From Eubacteriales bacterium (GTDB taxonomy: Bacteria > Bacillota > Clostridia > Saccharofermentanales > UBA5734), in the NCBI GenBank assembly GCA_028685755.1, contig JAQUDJ010000002.1, positions 100,122-133,609 on the forward strand: DNA of 33,488 nucleotides, in the 5' to 3' direction. The notes below the pieces were generated by a model. The model did no database searches. It had not been told where the DNA came from and saw nothing but the letters and a program-made list of their open reading frames with translations. Of this stretch, positions 2,584-10,758 are shown in pieces. The position numbers were made by a program, and so were the translations under genes. The number at the start of each line of letters is the position of its first letter. Position 1 is the first letter of the stretch.

Positions 2584-2949
2584 ATGCAACGTTCCGACCG
2601 CGTCGGTGACGAGATTCAAAAAGTCGTGGCTGACCTGATTCAAAACGAAATCAAAGACCCGCGTCTGCCACCGATGACCTCGGTTGTCGAGGTGCGGGCC
2701 TCCCGCGACTTGTCTCATGCTCATATTTACATCAGTGTTTTAGGCAATGACCAACAAAAGAAAGATTGCGCTGCAGCTTTACGTAGTGCATCGGGTTATA
2801 TCAGGCGTGAATTATCACATCGCATCCGTTTGCGCATTGCTCCAGAACTCCATTTCATCGTCGATGAATCAATCGAGCGCGGTTTCCGCATGAACAAGCT
2901 GATTGACGAGGCGATGGGAAACATCAAAGATAATGAACCCAGCACGTGA
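2584..2949 (+). CDS. rbfA: Ribosome-binding factor A
   Basis: Small KH-fold factor needed for late 30S assembly and 16S 5'-end maturation, especially in the cold. The 121-residue length is typical. The N-terminal RSDRVGDEIQKVVADLIQNE helix and the following KDPR segment match the family, as does the central LSHAHIYISVLG strand and the RIRLRIAPELHFIVDES ending with an SIERG-like motif. The ATG at 2584 is preceded by a strong GAGAGGAG site inside the end of infB (2567-2574). The 3' end overlaps the next gene. It sits in the classic infB-rbfA-DHH-truB-ribF order, so co-transcription with infB is likely. No irregularity is seen. Confidence 0.96.
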   Translation: MQRSDRVGDEIQKVVADLIQNEIKDPRLPPMTSVVEVRASRDLSHAHIYISVLGNDQQKKDCAAALRSASGYIRRELSHRIRLRIAPELHFIVDESIERGFRMNKLIDEAMGNIKDNEPST

Positions 2950-4009
2950 TCGAATCCTTGATGCGATTCTCGAAACAGTCCGTCGCCATGGCGCGATCGG
3001 ACTGTTTCCGCATGTCGGGGCGGATGGCGATGCGCTCGGCTCAGCGATTGGCTTAGCCTTAGCTTTAAACAAAGCTGGCGCCAAAACGCGAGTTTTCACA
3101 GATGAGCCGGTCAGCAATCGATTGAATTTCATTCCTGCATTGTCGCTAGTGACTGTTCACCGTGATCTGACGCCCGACAATTGGCCGGACCCGATGGATT
3201 TGGCGATCGCTGTTGATTGCACCGAGCCAGAACGTCTCGGTTGCCGCCAACCGCTCTATTTAGAAGCGGAGGCTCAAGCCGCATTGGATCACCATGTATC
3301 TAGCGGTGAATCAGGTGGCCTCAAGATGATCGATCCAGAAGCCGCCGCGACTGGTGAGATCATGGCAGATTTAATCACGCTTTTAGAAGCCCGTTTAGGT
3401 CTGTCGTTGATGGACAGTGACTCGGCCAAAGCCCTGATGACAGCGATCGTTTCGGATACTGGTGGGTTTGTCTATTCCAATACATCATCGAGATCTTTTG
3501 CCACCGCGGCCAGACTAATGACCTTTGACCCTGATTTGCGCCAAATCACTTACCGCTTATTCGACGAAACGAGCAGAACTCGCTTGCGTCTAACGGGGCG
3601 TATGTTTTGCGATGCAACATTTCTAGCCGAGGGCCGGTTGGTCTATGCCAGCGTCGATCAGGCTCTCTTGCGCAGTCTTGATGCCTCGGATCAGGATCTT
3701 GACGGGATCATCGCCGATTTACGTAAAGTCGCTGGTGTCGAAGTGGCGCTAATGTTTCGGGAATTAGTTGATGGTGGCGTTCGCATCAATATCCGGAGCA
3801 ATGACCATTTTCATGCGGCCCAATTTGCCGCTCTCTACGGTGGTGGCGGTCACGCCAAAGCCGCCGGCATGACAATCAAACATGCAACCCTCGATGAGGC
3901 CGTTACTATTGTACTTGTAAAAGCGGGTGAGTGGCTTGAGCAGACCCCGGTCTTAACCGCTGATTCTAGACCTGGGGTCTATTATTCAGCTGCAAAACAA
4001 GGTGTTTAA
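2933..4009 (+). CDS. nrnA: DHH/DHHA1 phosphoesterase, NrnA-type nanoRNase / pAp phosphatase
   Basis: Manganese-dependent hydrolase family that degrades short oligoribonucleotides and, in many members, dephosphorylates pAp or cleaves pApA. Taking the ATG at 2933 the protein has 358 residues. The DHH-domain motifs are in order: GADGDALGS (about 29-37), AVDCTEPERLG, DHH at 119-121, and SDTGGFVYSNTSSR; the C-terminal DHHA1 domain carries GGGGHAKAAG. A TTG at 2903 would add 10 residues with no better ribosome site, so ATG 2933 is preferred; this overlaps rbfA by 17 bp. The stop codon shares one base with the truB start (TAATG). Location between rbfA and truB is the usual one for NrnA in Gram-positives. 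Whether it acts mainly on nanoRNA, pAp or cyclic dinucleotide products cannot be told from sequence. Confidence 0.93.
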   Translation: MNPARDRILDAILETVRRHGAIGLFPHVGADGDALGSAIGLALALNKAGAKTRVFTDEPVSNRLNFIPALSLVTVHRDLTPDNWPDPMDLAIAVDCTEPERLGCRQPLYLEAEAQAALDHHVSSGESGGLKMIDPEAAATGEIMADLITLLEARLGLSLMDSDSAKALMTAIVSDTGGFVYSNTSSRSFATAARLMTFDPDLRQITYRLFDETSRTRLRLTGRMFCDATFLAEGRLVYASVDQALLRSLDASDQDLDGIIADLRKVAGVEVALMFRELVDGGVRINIRSNDHFHAAQFAALYGGGGHAKAAGMTIKHATLDEAVTIVLVKAGEWLEQTPVLTADSRPGVYYSAAKQGV

Positions 4010-5106
4010 TGACGCAACAGCCAGCTAAAAAACTCGAAAAAGACGGTATTTTATTAATTGAAAAACCCCGCGATCTGACGTCGTTCGGGGTTGTTTCTCG
4101 TTTGCGTCGTTTGATTGGTGAACGAAAAATTGGCCATACAGGGACCTTAGATCCCTTTGCGGAAGGCTTACTAGCCGTTTGTGTTGGACAAGCCACTCGC
4201 GTCGTTCAGTTCATGGATACGTATGACAAATCGTACCGTGTGCGTATATTATTCGGCCAAGCGACTGATACAATGGACCTGACTGGTACAATCATCGAAA
4301 GCAGATCGTTTTTGCCAGGTGAATTAAAAGCGTTACAAGATTCAGATTTTCAAGTCATCCGAGAGGCCGTTGCGGCGTTGGTTGGGCCCTCCATGCAAAT
4401 GCCCCCCATGTACTCGGCGGTTAAAATCGACGGCCAACCATTGTACAAGCTCGCGCGTGAAGGTCAAACTATTGATCGCCAGAGCCGCCCAATTACGATC
4501 TATCTTGCCGACATTGATCAGATCGACTGTCGCCCAGAACACGATCAAGTTGAACCGTATCTAGCGCTTGACTTGACTTTGAAAGTTTCAAAAGGCACCT
4601 ACATCCGTGTGATCGCGGATGAATTAGGCCGTCACTTAGGGTGGTTTGCGCATGCGATCTCGTTGGAAAGACTCACGGTTGGTCCTTTTAGCCGTGATCA
4701 TGCGATCAGCCTCGATCAGTTAGACCTATTGTTTGATCAACAACTTGAACGGAATCTTGCCCAGAACCAGGTTTGGCAGACGTTGATCAATCAAGGACTT
4801 GTTTACACAATGGATGACGCACTCGCCGATATGCCGACCTTGAACGTGCCGATGTATCTAGCGTTGCGCCTCGCCCAAGGTCAGAACGTGGTGCTTCATG
4901 CAGGCGATCTGACCACTTTTGCCCAAACATCTTTTACCCCTGAATTTGATCTGCGTCTAGCTGTACGTTGTTCTGTCGGTTTACTTGGTGTCATACGATT
5001 GACGCTTCCTTCGGAATTAACGGATTTGCCGGTATCCCCACCGTATGGATACCGATTGATGCCCGAAAGGATATTCTTGTCGCATGAACGTCTTTTACCC
5101 GAATGA
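4009..5106 (+). CDS. truB: tRNA pseudouridine(55) synthase
   Basis: Isomerises U55 in the T-loop of tRNAs. The 365-residue protein is longer than the usual 300-315. The catalytic motif GHTGTLDPFAEGLL is present with the nucleophilic Asp at residue 48. Other family motifs are the N-terminal GILLIEKPRDLTSF, the YDKSYRVRILFGQATDTMDLTG segment, and the MPPMYSAVKIDGQPLYKLAREG loop followed by KGTYIRVIADELG. The extra length lies after the core, around residues 230-290, before a C-terminal TruB_C/PUA-like part (NVPMYLALRLAQGQNV). The start overlaps the previous stop by one base, and the 3' end overlaps ribF by 23 bp, so translation of the block is probably coupled. Confidence 0.96.
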   Translation: MTQQPAKKLEKDGILLIEKPRDLTSFGVVSRLRRLIGERKIGHTGTLDPFAEGLLAVCVGQATRVVQFMDTYDKSYRVRILFGQATDTMDLTGTIIESRSFLPGELKALQDSDFQVIREAVAALVGPSMQMPPMYSAVKIDGQPLYKLAREGQTIDRQSRPITIYLADIDQIDCRPEHDQVEPYLALDLTLKVSKGTYIRVIADELGRHLGWFAHAISLERLTVGPFSRDHAISLDQLDLLFDQQLERNLAQNQVWQTLINQGLVYTMDDALADMPTLNVPMYLALRLAQGQNVVLHAGDLTTFAQTSFTPEFDLRLAVRCSVGLLGVIRLTLPSELTDLPVSPPYGYRLMPERIFLSHERLLPE

Positions 5107-7327
5107 CACGTGGGACCTCACTGTTCACAGAGGCGTTGCTTTAGGTTTTTTTGACGGTGTCCATCGCGGCCACCAAGATTTAATTAGAACCCTTGTTTAT
5201 CTTTGTGAGCAACGGCACTTAAGGCCAACCGTTTTTACGTTTCCTGAACATCCGCTCGTGACGATATCGCCAGAAGGCCAATTCCCTGGCTATCTTTCGA
5301 CTCTTGAGCAACGGATGCAGCGCATTGCCGATACAGGTATCCAAGAGGTTTTTTTACAGGACTTTACGACAGCGTTTGCCGCGCTGCCGCCGCTTGAATT
5401 TCTCAATTCCATCTTAAAAGACCATCTGCAAGCACGCCTTATCGTCGTCGGTAATGACTATCGCTTTGGTTATGAAGGTGAAGGGGACCTCGTCCTTTTG
5501 CGAGCGTGGGCGGCTGAACACCAGATCGAAGTGGTCATCGTTCCAGAGGTCAGACTTTATGGTGAAAAGGTCTCGAGCTCGCGGATTCGGCGCTTAATCG
5601 CAGCAGGGGATACCCAAATTGCTGCAAGTTGCTTGGGATTGCCTTTTCAGATGACCGGCCATGTCGTTGAAGGTAAAAAACTTGGCCGCAAACTCGGCTT
5701 TCCGACGGCGAATATGGCCATTTCACCAGATCTTGCAGTCCCGGCTTTTGGCGTCTATGTGACAAGGACTCGGGTTGGCAATCGAATGTATGAATCGATT
5801 ACCAATATTGGGATCCGCCCAACCATTCAAGATTCTGCCCCCAAACCGAATATCGAATCATTTCTTTTTGATGCGGATTTGGATCTTTATAGTCAAGAAA
5901 TAACCGTCGAATTTCTATACCGCTTACGCCCTGAGGTTATCTTTGATTCGTTACTTGAGTTAGCCGAGCAGGTTGAAATCGACCTTTTGCAAGCTCGTGA
6001 CTATCACCGGACGGCTGAACATGGATACGAAATTACCCGGATTAACGGCACGCCAGTCCGTGTCCTCAAAACGACACGCTTTGCTCAGGCCACCGCTATT
6101 TTGACCTTCCGGCTTAAAATCACACGAGCTGAAGCAAGTCTCTTTTCGATGTTGTCACGCTTGCTGACGGCCTCTTGTCAGCGTTATCCGACGCGGTCTA
6201 GTTTGTCAGCAGCACTCGACAGTCTTTATGGCGCAAGCATCGAAAATGAAGTCAGCAAAGACGGAGATCTGTTAAGTCTACATTTTGCGGTCAATGCCCT
6301 CATGAATTGGACGAATCAAACATCACCCTTTGCTGCCGCGCTAGATGTCCTATTTGACTTGCTCGAAAAACCAGACTTTGATCAAGATGGACATTTCACA
6401 GAAGCGATGTTTGCAGCAGAGCGAGATGGCTTGCGGATGGAATTGCTATCCCGCCAGAACGATAAAGCAAAGTTTGCCCTCGATCAATGTATGAACCGGT
6501 TATGTGGCGACCAACCTGCTGGACTGCGGGCGTCAGGTGATTTGGTGACGCTTGAAACGATTCAACGCGAGGACTTAACGGCAGCATATCGCCGCCTCAT
6601 AACAGATCTTGATTTTCAAGTATCAATTGCAGGCAACCTTTCCAATGACCTTATTGAGCACTTGTTTGAACGCGTCCGTCAATTGCGGACCAACACGCCG
6701 GTCTTGCCCGAAGCGCATGAAGCCTATCGGCCTGTTTACTTGCTGCGCCCAGGTGCCTTTAGCGCACAGGCGCTTGACAACAAAAATTTGCGCGAGTCCA
6801 AACAAGTCGAACAAGCTCGGATCTGCCTAGCTCTTACCGGACTGAAGCCCTATTTCAGCCATCAATCAATTATTGATACCGTGATGAATTCAATGCTTGG
6901 CGGTGATGTTCACTCATTACTCTTCGATGTCGTGCGTGAGCAAATGGGTTTAGCCTACAGTGTTTACTCTGTCAATAGTCGTTATCTTTCCACGTTGCTC
7001 GTGATCGCTGGCGTCGCACCTGACCGTGTCGATGAAGCCTTAGCTGCTATCTTGGAACAAGTCAATAATCTCAAGACTGGCACATTTTCACCCCGCTTAT
7101 TTGAACGGGCAGTGACCCTCGTAGAAAGCACGATTCGCACAATTCCGGATGACTTAGATAGCTTGCTCGCCCACATGATGAACGGGGTGACCCTCGGTCG
7201 GACTGTATCTATTCATGACTCGTTGAGTTTACTCGAGAGTGTTACGATTGAACAAATCATTGAACGAGCAGGGCATCTCAATGTGCAAAATAGCTATATC
7301 CTGACAGCAAAGGGGGAGACCCTGTGA
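5084..7327 (+). CDS. ribF: Fusion: RibF riboflavin kinase/FAD synthetase + inactive M16 (YmfF-like) domain
   Basis: A single 747-residue frame holding two proteins normally made separately. Residues 1 to about 307 are a complete RibF, which makes FMN and FAD from riboflavin: adenylyltransferase motif GFFDGVHRGH at 21-30, the SSSRIRRLI motif, and flavokinase motif GRKLGFPTAN at 201-210, then NIGIRPT and the usual C-terminal helix ending near QARDYH. About seven residues later (from Y315) an M16C-type domain of about 430 residues begins and runs to the end; its SLYGASIENEVSKDGD segment and VREQMGLAYSVYS near the C-terminal third are typical of YmfF-like insulinase relatives. The zinc motif HxxEH is absent; the equivalent helix reads MLSRL (356-360). 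Start ATG 5084 has GAAAGGA upstream and overlaps truB. No separate ATG or GTG start exists in frame at the junction; a TTG at 5987 lacks a ribosome site. The next gene, an M16 with an intact motif, overlaps by 4 bp. Confidence 0.93.
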   Translation: MNVFYPNDTWDLTVHRGVALGFFDGVHRGHQDLIRTLVYLCEQRHLRPTVFTFPEHPLVTISPEGQFPGYLSTLEQRMQRIADTGIQEVFLQDFTTAFAALPPLEFLNSILKDHLQARLIVVGNDYRFGYEGEGDLVLLRAWAAEHQIEVVIVPEVRLYGEKVSSSRIRRLIAAGDTQIAASCLGLPFQMTGHVVEGKKLGRKLGFPTANMAISPDLAVPAFGVYVTRTRVGNRMYESITNIGIRPTIQDSAPKPNIESFLFDADLDLYSQEITVEFLYRLRPEVIFDSLLELAEQVEIDLLQARDYHRTAEHGYEITRINGTPVRVLKTTRFAQATAILTFRLKITRAEASLFSMLSRLLTASCQRYPTRSSLSAALDSLYGASIENEVSKDGDLLSLHFAVNALMNWTNQTSPFAAALDVLFDLLEKPDFDQDGHFTEAMFAAERDGLRMELLSRQNDKAKFALDQCMNRLCGDQPAGLRASGDLVTLETIQREDLTAAYRRLITDLDFQVSIAGNLSNDLIEHLFERVRQLRTNTPVLPEAHEAYRPVYLLRPGAFSAQALDNKNLRESKQVEQARICLALTGLKPYFSHQSIIDTVMNSMLGGDVHSLLFDVVREQMGLAYSVYSVNSRYLSTLLVIAGVAPDRVDEALAAILEQVNNLKTGTFSPRLFERAVTLVESTIRTIPDDLDSLLAHMMNGVTLGRTVSIHDSLSLLESVTIEQIIERAGHLNVQNSYILTAKGETL

Positions 7328-8667
7328 ACGCAAGTCAAACCACCCACTTGACGACTGACCACCACGCCTTTACCTTGCTCGAAACGGTCGATCCGCTGAC
7401 CAGCCATGTCATGCGTACCTATCGTCATCGATCGGGTTTTCTGGTGAAAATATTGCCTCGGCCTGGGTTTTCACGCCGCTTCGCCGCGCTAACCGTACCG
7501 TATGGGTCCATCCATACAACCTTCGTACGTGAAGGACTGACGACGACTGTCCCGGATGGTAGTGCGCATTTTCTCGAACATTGTGTCTTTTCAAGAGATG
7601 AGCAAGGGGGCTTGTTAGGTCGTCTTTCGGCGCTCGGTGCATCAGCCAACGCTTATACGAGTCACACGCACACGATGTACTATTTTTCCAGTGTGGCATC
7701 ATTTAGTGAAGGTTTAGAACTCTATCTCGACGCCGTGCTCAATCCCTACTTAGAAACAGATCGTATCGACGTGGAACGGCCAGTTATATTGGCTGAGCTT
7801 GACCAGTATCTCGACGATCCGGATACAGTCTGCTATGTGCAACTTTTGAACAGCTTGTACCATAATCACCCGGTGCGCCAAGACATTGGTGGCACCGCAG
7901 CGTCAGTCAAACAGATCACCAGCGAACATCTCAAGTCTGTTTGGTCAACTTTTTATCAGCCGGGAATGCTATCCCTAACACTTGTTGGCGATTTGGAAGA
8001 AATGCAAATCCTCAAAAGCTTAGGCGCGCGTCTCGCGACCGCGCAACCGGTGCGTGGCCAAGCCGTTCTCGACACCGAACCGGAAACCCCTGAAAATCAA
8101 CCTGTGATCAAAGCGATGGATGTTTCCGCACCTTCTTTTTTAGTCGGGATCAAAGATCCAACTATTTTACCGCAACATCCGCTCGAAGGTCGGGAGCTCG
8201 TGCTGCGACAAAGGATGGCGCGTCTTGCCTTTGACACCCTTTTATCACCTGCCTCGGCATTGTATGAAAAACTTTTTGAGCGTGGCCTAATCAATGATTC
8301 ATTTGGCTATCATTACGCCTGTGAACCAAACTTTGCGTTCCTAGCGGCAGGTGGCGAATCGAAAGATCCTCAAGCTGCCGGGGAGGCTTTGATTATCGGC
8401 TTGCAACATGCGTGGCGCCAAGGCCTCGATCCGGAATTGTTCGAGATCCAAAAACGAGCCGCCGCCGGTGATTTTGTTCGCTCGTTAGATTCAATTGAAC
8501 ACAGTGGTCTCGTCCAAGCGCAATGCAACCAATATGGACTCGATCTCTTCGATTATCCGGCCCTCTATGATAAGATGAATGCCGAAACGGCCATGCAACA
8601 GCTTGGTTTTCTCGGTGATCCGGCAAGCTACACGATGTCAATCATTACCCGCCAAAGTGAAGACTAG
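7324..8667 (+). CDS. M16 zinc metallopeptidase (YmfH-like, intact HxxEH)
   Basis: Insulinase/processing-peptidase-fold protein of 447 residues. The inverted zinc motif is H82-F-L-E85-H86, and a likely third ligand, E158, lies in the AELDQYLDDPD segment about 72 residues later, at the spacing expected for M16. SALGASANAYTSHTHTMYYF between them matches the substrate-strand region. The GTG start overlaps the preceding TGA by 4 bp and has a strong AAGGGGGAG site. M16 proteins of this type work as pairs of one active and one inactive subunit; the inactive partner here is the C-terminal half of the preceding RibF fusion, so a heterodimer is inferred. Bacillus YmfF/YmfH are the closest known arrangement. 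Substrate is unknown; secreted or membrane peptides are possible, though no signal peptide is seen here. Confidence 0.92.
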   Translation: MNASQTTHLTTDHHAFTLLETVDPLTSHVMRTYRHRSGFLVKILPRPGFSRRFAALTVPYGSIHTTFVREGLTTTVPDGSAHFLEHCVFSRDEQGGLLGRLSALGASANAYTSHTHTMYYFSSVASFSEGLELYLDAVLNPYLETDRIDVERPVILAELDQYLDDPDTVCYVQLLNSLYHNHPVRQDIGGTAASVKQITSEHLKSVWSTFYQPGMLSLTLVGDLEEMQILKSLGARLATAQPVRGQAVLDTEPETPENQPVIKAMDVSAPSFLVGIKDPTILPQHPLEGRELVLRQRMARLAFDTLLSPASALYEKLFERGLINDSFGYHYACEPNFAFLAAGGESKDPQAAGEALIIGLQHAWRQGLDPELFEIQKRAAAGDFVRSLDSIEHSGLVQAQCNQYGLDLFDYPALYDKMNAETAMQQLGFLGDPASYTMSIITRQSED

Positions 8668-8714
8668 CAACTGCCCAGATAGCCACCTTGAAAAACCTTT
8701 TGGAGGAAATAGAT

Positions 8715-9635
8715 ATGTCTCTAGCATCCGCCCTCGCCGCAGTCCCAGTTAATGTCGATTTCCCTGGCCTTGGGATCCAAAATTTGCCCGTAAATCGTGT
8801 GGCTTTTGAAGTTTTTCATATTCCCGTTTACTGGTACGGCCTACTCATCGCATCATCGATCATTCTCAGCTTGCTCCTCGCGATGCGCCATGCGGATCGT
8901 TTTGGCTTAAAAGCCGATGATGTCATGGATGTCTTCATTTTCATCATCCCGGCCATGATTATTTCCGCGCGGGCTTATTACGTAATCTTCAACTGGGGAT
9001 ATTATAGCCAAGACTGGATGCGTGTGTTCAACACTCGTGAAGGCGGTATGGCTTTTTATGGCGGCGTGATTGGAGCCTTGCTGACGGCAATCATCGTATT
9101 AAGGGTCAAAAAAATCAACATTGCCTTGTTCGTCGATTTTTTAATTGTTTATGTCCCTCTTGCTCAAGCCATTGGCCGTTGGGGCAATTTCTTCAATCAG
9201 GAAGCGTTTGGTATCAATACCAAACTGCCATGGGGTATGATCAGCCAATCCACGACCACGTATCTCCTGTCGGTGCCTGGCACCGATCCCTTTTTGCCAG
9301 TTCATCCGACTTTCTTCTATGAATTTGTCGCGAACCTCGTCATTTTCATTGTTTTGATCCAGATACGTCGCAATCGCCAGTTTGATTATCAGGTGTTCTT
9401 GAGCTATCTACTCACCTACGGTGTCGTCCGGTTCTTCGTTGAGGGGATCCGCACCGATGCCTTGATGCTCGGCCAAACAACGATCCGAGTGTCACAGGTG
9501 TTGTCCGCTGTAATGGTTGTAGCTTCGGCCGTACTATTGCTCGTTTTAAGTCTTCGCACTGCGAAAAAACGTCGCCTCGCAAAAACAGAATCATCCGATT
9601 TTGTGGAAATTTCAAAACCTGATTCGAATGGCTGA
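8715..9635 (+). CDS. lgt: Prolipoprotein diacylglyceryl transferase
   Basis: Integral membrane enzyme that transfers diacylglycerol from phosphatidylglycerol to the lipobox cysteine of prolipoproteins, the first step of lipoprotein maturation. Start ATG 8715 is chosen because TGGAGGA lies 7-8 nt upstream (8701-8707); a TTG at 8688 would add nine residues ahead of that site. The 306-residue protein has about seven hydrophobic segments. Family motifs are YWYGLL, the EGGMAFYGGVIG loop, the Lgt signature GRWGNFFNQEAFG (about 154-166), HPTFFYE, and RFFVEGIRTD near the last helices. It follows the M16 gene after 47 nt and overlaps rodA by 8 bp, so it probably belongs to the same transcription unit as its neighbours. 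Confidence 0.97.
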   Translation: MSLASALAAVPVNVDFPGLGIQNLPVNRVAFEVFHIPVYWYGLLIASSIILSLLLAMRHADRFGLKADDVMDVFIFIIPAMIISARAYYVIFNWGYYSQDWMRVFNTREGGMAFYGGVIGALLTAIIVLRVKKINIALFVDFLIVYVPLAQAIGRWGNFFNQEAFGINTKLPWGMISQSTTTYLLSVPGTDPFLPVHPTFFYEFVANLVIFIVLIQIRRNRQFDYQVFLSYLLTYGVVRFFVEGIRTDALMLGQTTIRVSQVLSAVMVVASAVLLLVLSLRTAKKRRLAKTESSDFVEISKPDSNG

Positions 9636-10758
9636 TACGGGTGTCACACAACTTAAACGTGACGGTTACTTCAGTGCGATCGATTATTGGCTACTGATTC
9701 CGGTTTTGGCTGTGACCATGATTGGTCTTTACGTTCTCAACAAGGTTTTGAGCACCGGTTTTGAAGATTACCCGCTCAATTTCTACAAACAAGTGGGCGC
9801 AGTCTTGATTGGTCTTGTCTTAGCGATGATCATTGGTCGGCTTGAATTGCCAACCTTGCGACTGATTGGCTTTAGTGTCTATGGCATGAGTATTGTGTTG
9901 CTCGGCCTCGTTTTAGTGGATGGTTTTTCCATGGCTGACACCTGGGGCGCCGATAGTTGGCTCAAATTGCCAGTTGTTGGGACATTTCAGCCTTCGGAAT
10001 TGGCAAAAATCGGCCTAGCGATGGTCACCGCGGATATTTTTGAGTCGATTAATTTCAAGCGCGTCAGCGCACTGACCGGGACGGGCATGATGATAGCCAC
10101 ATATGCAGTACCCATCGGATTGATCATGCTGCAGCCTGATTTTGGAACGACCATGGTCATCGTTTTCATGTTTATTTGCACCCTGTTTGTGTTTGGTATC
10201 AAATGGCGTTATGTCCTGTTGGGGTTATCAACCGCCGTCATTGCCATCCCGCTTGCTTGGATATTTTATTTTTCTGATTATCAAAAAAATCGAATATTGA
10301 CCTTTTTATATCCCGGACATGATCCAGACGCCTCCTATAATCTCTTGCAGGCTCAAGCCGCCATCGCATCCGGTGGGCTCTCCGGCAGTACGCGGGAATA
10401 TCCGATTCATGTTCCGGTCAAATGGTCCGACTTTATTTACACGGCCGTCTCCGAACATATGGGATTCATTGGAACCACGGCATTAGTGGCCCTGATCTTT
10501 TTCTTTTTAATTCGCAGCTTATTCATCGCCTCGCAAATTCAACCCCATCGGCCTGCCGCGGCCTATATGGTCGTCGGGCTGACTTCATCGCTCGCTTTTC
10601 ACTACATCGAAAACTTAGGTATGTGCGTGGGTTTGATGCCAATCACCGGCATTCCGCTGCCTTTTGTTAGTCTCGGTGGCACTTCTATGGTCGTTAATTT
10701 TATTGGCCTAGGTGTCATGCTCAACATTGCGATTGAGCGAAATTTAATGCGGCGCTAA
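9628..10758 (+). CDS. rodA: Rod-shape SEDS peptidoglycan glycosyltransferase RodA
   Basis: Membrane glycosyltransferase of the SEDS family that polymerises lipid II for lateral wall growth with a class B PBP. The 376-residue protein (from ATG 9628; a TTG at 9601 would add nine residues) has about ten membrane segments. Motifs include FQPSELAKIGLAM, the extracellular-loop WSDFIYTAVSEHMGF containing the candidate catalytic Asp268, and the C-terminal TGIPLPFVSLGGTSM signature. A second SEDS protein at 19546 lies in the dcw cluster and is the FtsW candidate, which supports the RodA assignment here. The start overlaps lgt by 8 bp without a strong ribosome site, suggesting coupled translation. Its usual partners mreBCD are not adjacent. 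A hairpin terminator candidate follows. Confidence 0.92.
   Translation: MADTGVTQLKRDGYFSAIDYWLLIPVLAVTMIGLYVLNKVLSTGFEDYPLNFYKQVGAVLIGLVLAMIIGRLELPTLRLIGFSVYGMSIVLLGLVLVDGFSMADTWGADSWLKLPVVGTFQPSELAKIGLAMVTADIFESINFKRVSALTGTGMMIATYAVPIGLIMLQPDFGTTMVIVFMFICTLFVFGIKWRYVLLGLSTAVIAIPLAWIFYFSDYQKNRILTFLYPGHDPDASYNLLQAQAAIASGGLSGSTREYPIHVPVKWSDFIYTAVSEHMGFIGTTALVALIFFFLIRSLFIASQIQPHRPAAAYMVVGLTSSLAFHYIENLGMCVGLMPITGIPLPFVSLGGTSMVVNFIGLGVMLNIAIERNLMRR

Follow-up and report, generated by a model that had tools for sequence, protein, structure and literature searches.

Background

YmfF and YmfH are widespread in the Clostridia and Bacilli. In Bacillus subtilis and its relatives, the two proteins are heteromeric M16B peptidases that can cut lanthipeptide leaders (PMC8960859), and a model of the YmfF–YmfH pair is supported by crosslinking (PMC10090944). 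A substrate-binding feature of the inactive M16B subunits is an R...Y residue pair (PMC8960859).

Here we analyze a 33,488-nucleotide stretch of clostridial DNA (contig JAQUDJ010000002.1; "the window"), in which a YmfF-type subunit is joined in frame to RibF. As far as we could find, the RibF–YmfF domain architecture is undescribed; literature searches for a RibF/M16 fusion found none, in keeping with the original prediction, which had been made from the window's letters. All coordinates are on the + strand of the window.

The Fused Gene and Its Operon

The fused gene extends from ATG to TGA at 5084–7327 and encodes 747 aa; its translation is one open frame, without interruption. Its operon neighbors upstream are a gene for an NrnA-like DHH/DHHA1 phosphoesterase (2903–4009, profile match) and truB (4009–5106), which shares the last 23 bases of its 3′ end with the start of the fused gene. 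Downstream, beyond yfmH, are a gene that we take, from gene context and general knowledge, to be lgt (8688–9635) and an FtsW/RodA-type gene (9601–10,758), named from sequence and context. These last two genes served as markers when the locus was compared across relatives. Over the window as a whole (1–33,488), the series infB-nrnA-truB-ribF::yfmF-yfmH-lgt leads straight into mraZ, mraW, a PBP gene, ftsQ and ftsZ, i.e., a division and cell-wall cluster.

The N-terminal half contains an FMN adenylyltransferase (FAD synthetase) domain (FAD_syn, PF06574, 143 bits) at residues 18–167 (5135–5584) and a riboflavin kinase domain (Flavokinase, PF01687, 125 bits) at residues 184–307 (5633–6004). Against the RibF profile TIGR00083, the fused protein scores 241 bits, above the cut-off of 184.35. 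Motif alignment places the nucleotidyl-transferase motif GFFDGVHRGH at residues 21–30 (5144–5173) and the riboflavin-kinase motif GFPTAN at residues 205–210 (5696–5713). Signature and catalytic residues of RibF are invariant or nearly so among 25 fused proteins, with G21, F23, D24, G25, H27, G29 and H30 of the first motif, T208, A209 and N210 of the second, and E258 being invariant. The RibF half is thus complete with its motifs, as first proposed. No other RibF is encoded in the window's genome, and FMN and FAD must therefore come from the fusion. Judged from its sequence, the N-terminal half is probably a plain bifunctional riboflavin kinase/FAD synthetase and would be enzymatically active.

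The C-terminal half, residues about 317–742 (6032–7309), is a YmfF-type inactive M16B subunit. The YfmF_fam profile (NF047422) spans residues 322–742 with 232 bits, below the curated cut-off of 285, a value exceeded by none of the 58 relatives compared, and Peptidase_M16_C (Pfam) lies at residues 493–678. Membership in the YmfF family is indicated by a fold match over the whole length of the half, by the absence of HxxEH from it, by the R...Y pair, found by motif alignment in RExxGLAY at residues 618–625 (6935–6958) and interpreted after PMC8960859, and by the adjoining yfmH. The pair is kept in most fused YmfF halves and is altered in genomes G028 and G041. The original prediction had called this half degenerate. 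HxxEH is indeed missing, but the half is not newly degenerate, as the lack of HxxEH is normal for YmfF.

To summarize, the fusion is a complete RibF and a complete YmfF-type subunit in one real frame. Both halves are, by codon comparison, under purifying selection, dN being far below dS in each for the pairs with estimable dS.

Distribution among Relatives

The comparison covered 58 relatives, 293 genomes from the class and 398 from across the phylum. Full-length, stop-free fused homologs were found in about 30 further genomes, at 28–69% identity, including the single-contig genomes G025 and G028. This conservation bears on the possibility that an assembly or sequencing artefact joined two genes. 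The genome that contains the window is in 56 contigs, which gives that possibility some footing; the presence of the same fusion in so many genomes, two of them single-contig, reduces its probability to a negligible one, and an error was rejected on this ground. The frame argument made at the outset against a sequencing slip also holds, as the TGA at 6016 and the ATG at 6021 are in two other frames.

Within the window's order, every relative with YmfF has it joined to RibF, bar pieces at contig ends. The fusion is present in the window's family (f1), in family f4, to which the two single-contig genomes belong, and in one genome of family f3 (G057). In family f2 and the remaining f3 genomes, RibF is normal and both YmfF and YmfH are missing; genomes of the order without YmfF are also without YmfH, fragmented assemblies excepted. 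In the f2 and f3 genomes without yfmF, lgt follows ribF directly wherever the contig permits, the exception being G053, where lgt was not found beside ribF. The record of Mageeibacillus sp. UBA3781 (L158) likewise reads nrnA-truB-ribF-lgt, without yfmFH. A true absence of the locus was rejected for G002 and G004, since lgt is a mere fragment in the former and missing in the latter, which is read as assembly gaps.

Outside the window's order, the other fused case among the matches listed is genus g36 of family f15, a member of another order. No further RibF/YmfF fusion is found among the matches listed for the 293 class and 398 phylum genomes. A fused match would rank at the top of such a listing. 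Elsewhere in the class, yfmF generally lies away from ribF, the nearest case among the matches listed being 2.6 kb distant in G069. Two contig scans were made for the fusion: the first gave no matches, and the second gave unfused RibF only.

Origin of the Fusion

Separate genes, which the original prediction had named as one part of a counter-indication, do exist in relatives, but in another order and not in the window's own. In the order that contains g36, most yfmF-bearing genomes have the arrangement nrnA-truB-ribF-yfmF-yfmH-lgt with ribF and yfmF separate, and the ends of these two genes overlap or stand a few tens of bases apart. In an operon tree built from NrnA, TruB, RibF, Lgt and FtsW, the g36 fusion is nested among relatives in which the genes are separate or absent (SH-aLRT 99–100). 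For the window's order, the tree gives a fused ancestor and several later losses, and no return from fused to separate genes was observed there.

The simplest reading of these trees is that the neighboring genes fused independently, at least twice. It is preferred because, had the common ancestor been fused, the genes would have to have split apart several times. The possibility that g36 acquired a single fused gene by horizontal transfer was considered and rejected, as the g36 YmfF groups with the separate YmfF of its own order in the YmfF tree (SH-aLRT 99), although the AU test for YmfF alone does not reject, and so does not exclude, a single fused clade (p 0.13). For RibF, the AU test rejects a single fused clade with a p of 4e-55, a value inflated because relatives that lost the peptidase pair fall inside the window's order.

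RibF has also been joined on its other side. Two genomes of the other order hold TruB and RibF in one open frame: G737 (L143:4952–6988, 679 codons stop to stop) and G721 (L149:5050–6771, 574 codons stop to stop); the whole sequence was read for G737 only.

The Junction

The junction (5951–6043) leads from the C-terminal RibF helix (290–310) into the first YmfF strand (315–320). The single-chain AlphaFold2 model of the window's fusion has a pLDDT of 90.9 and a pTM of 0.89, with both halves at high confidence, a pLDDT of about 89–94 at the junction, and almost no linker between the last RibF helix and the first YmfF strand. A model from the other fusion lineage has a pTM of 0.83. These pTM values, used here in place of an error map, suggest that the two halves hold an ordered relative placement. 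In Foldseek searches, the RibF half matches the FAD synthetase of Corynebacterium ammoniagenes and other RibF structures, and the YmfF half matches B. subtilis YmfF (9a7y_A, TMt 0.86) and Enterococcus faecalis 3d3y (TMt 0.86–0.88 over both).

The firm placement of the halves allows a structural role for the tether, and it is one of the points in favor of functional coupling, in which FMN, FAD or riboflavin in the RibF half would alter the assembly or activity of YmfF/YmfH, or RibF oligomers would arrange several chambers. The placement is seen in models of both fusion lineages; moreover, the fusion is present in two lineages and was kept over a whole order with no observed reversion to separate genes. 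On the other hand, the RibF motifs are those of the plain enzyme, and genomes that lost the peptidase pair retain RibF. The genes were already adjacent, so their repeated fusion needs no functional reason, and TruB::RibF fusions exist in the other order too. We consider such coupling unlikely.

A start-codon scan of the junction found no conserved start codon across the window's order; the window's fusion has a weak in-frame TTG at residue 302. All five g36 fusions (L031, L033, L035, L036 and L108) have an in-frame ATG, preceded by a purine-rich stretch and near the position of the yfmF start in sister genomes. The conserved ATG and purine-rich stretch make a second, YmfF-only product possible in g36. 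In general, the fusion may be cleaved post-translationally, or a separately started YmfF may be made.

Either product would suit the proposal that the fusion is a passive accident, retained only because the stop and start are hard to restore, with the polypeptide being cut or accompanied by an internally started YmfF. In sister lineages, the two genes are adjacent and overlapping, which agrees with this proposal, as does the g36 ATG. The window's order, without a conserved junction start codon and with a junction modeled as ordered, speaks against it, and we think it rather improbable.

YmfH and the Peptidase Pair

The zinc-site M16B partner, YmfH, is encoded at 7324–8667 (447 aa; YfmH_fam, NF047421, 296 bits against a cut-off of 250). 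The gene starts with GTG, and its first 4 bases (GTGA) include the stop codon of the fusion. A motif scan places its zinc motif, HFLEH, at 7567–7581, and the third Glu ligand is found in ILAELDQ downstream. The original prediction of an HxxEH-less subunit directly abutting an active-site partner is thus borne out. Analogy with B. subtilis YmfF/YmfH and PttP1/PttP2 suggests that the YmfF half and YmfH form a proteolytic heterodimer.

Nearly all YmfH proteins keep HxxEH. In G033 (L078:3969–5498), the zinc motif reads HFMEY. In G028 (L060:7420–8778), YmfH has KLLSK at the HxxEH position, and in the R/Y pair of the fused YmfF half, R is replaced by K. Both G028 frames are intact despite a dead M16 pair fused to RibF, which fits poorly with a purely proteolytic role in that genome. 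One could propose that RibF is a lasting scaffold for the peptidase, that the YmfF/YmfH chamber is organized or gated by the flavin-binding or oligomeric state of RibF, and that the pair, in G028 at least, now belongs to the flavin enzyme without proteolytic function; we hold this to be quite doubtful.

Where the peptidase pair has been lost, RibF always remains, and the YmfF half and YmfH go together. This pattern links the YmfF half to YmfH rather than to flavin, and the fusion is accordingly read as two independent activities in one chain, with coupled production. The original prediction had also tied flavin state to peptidase pairing. This part found no support, given the ordinary motifs of a sole RibF and the joint loss of YmfF and YmfH; flavin control of the peptidase is possible but unsupported.

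As to substrates, no LanC-like protein was found in any fused genome searched, so a LanC-dependent lanthipeptide is unlikely, and a link to lanthipeptides was rejected. With regard to the EF-P 5-aminopentanol modification-associated proteins, the window's genome encodes an EF-P (249.6 bits) with a modifiable lysine in the loop PGKGAAFV; YmfF and YmfH are absent from the main text of the EF-P screen paper (PMC5885033).

Proposed Reading

We think it probable that the fusion is a true two-domain protein that arose by stop loss. The stop codon between neighboring, near-overlapping genes of an nrnA-truB-ribF-yfmF-yfmH-lgt operon would have been lost. The N-terminal half would be an ordinary riboflavin kinase/FAD synthetase, the cell's only one, and the zinc-less YmfF half would form a peptide-cutting chamber with the separately encoded YmfH. 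The tether would fix the YmfF half to RibF, and equal amounts of both would be produced. The RibF and peptidase activities would otherwise be independent, with no cross-talk expected between them.

Comparison with Known Systems

A deeply conserved covalent link to an essential flavin enzyme, apparently made twice, is a concrete lead on the peptidase's place, and the locus provides natural comparisons in which the pair is fused, separate, lost or catalytically dead. The RibF half shares with C. ammoniagenes FADS (2x0k) and Thermotoga maritima TM379 (1mrz) the same domains, the motifs GxFDGxHxGH, SSxxIR, LGFPTAN and NIGxRPT, and the catalytic Glu, with about 30% identity over the structural match. 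The fusion differs from both in having a 430-residue M16B subunit directly after the last helix. The YmfF half resembles B. subtilis YmfF (9a7y) and E. faecalis 3d3y in its fold, its lack of HxxEH, its R/Y pair and its adjoining YmfH gene; in contrast to those free-standing proteins, it is fused to RibF. The M16B heterodimer Sph2681/Sph2682 (3amj) and the lanthipeptide proteases PttP1/PttP2 have, as here, one HxxEH subunit and one R/Y subunit, whereas no LanC-like enzyme was found among the fused genomes searched.
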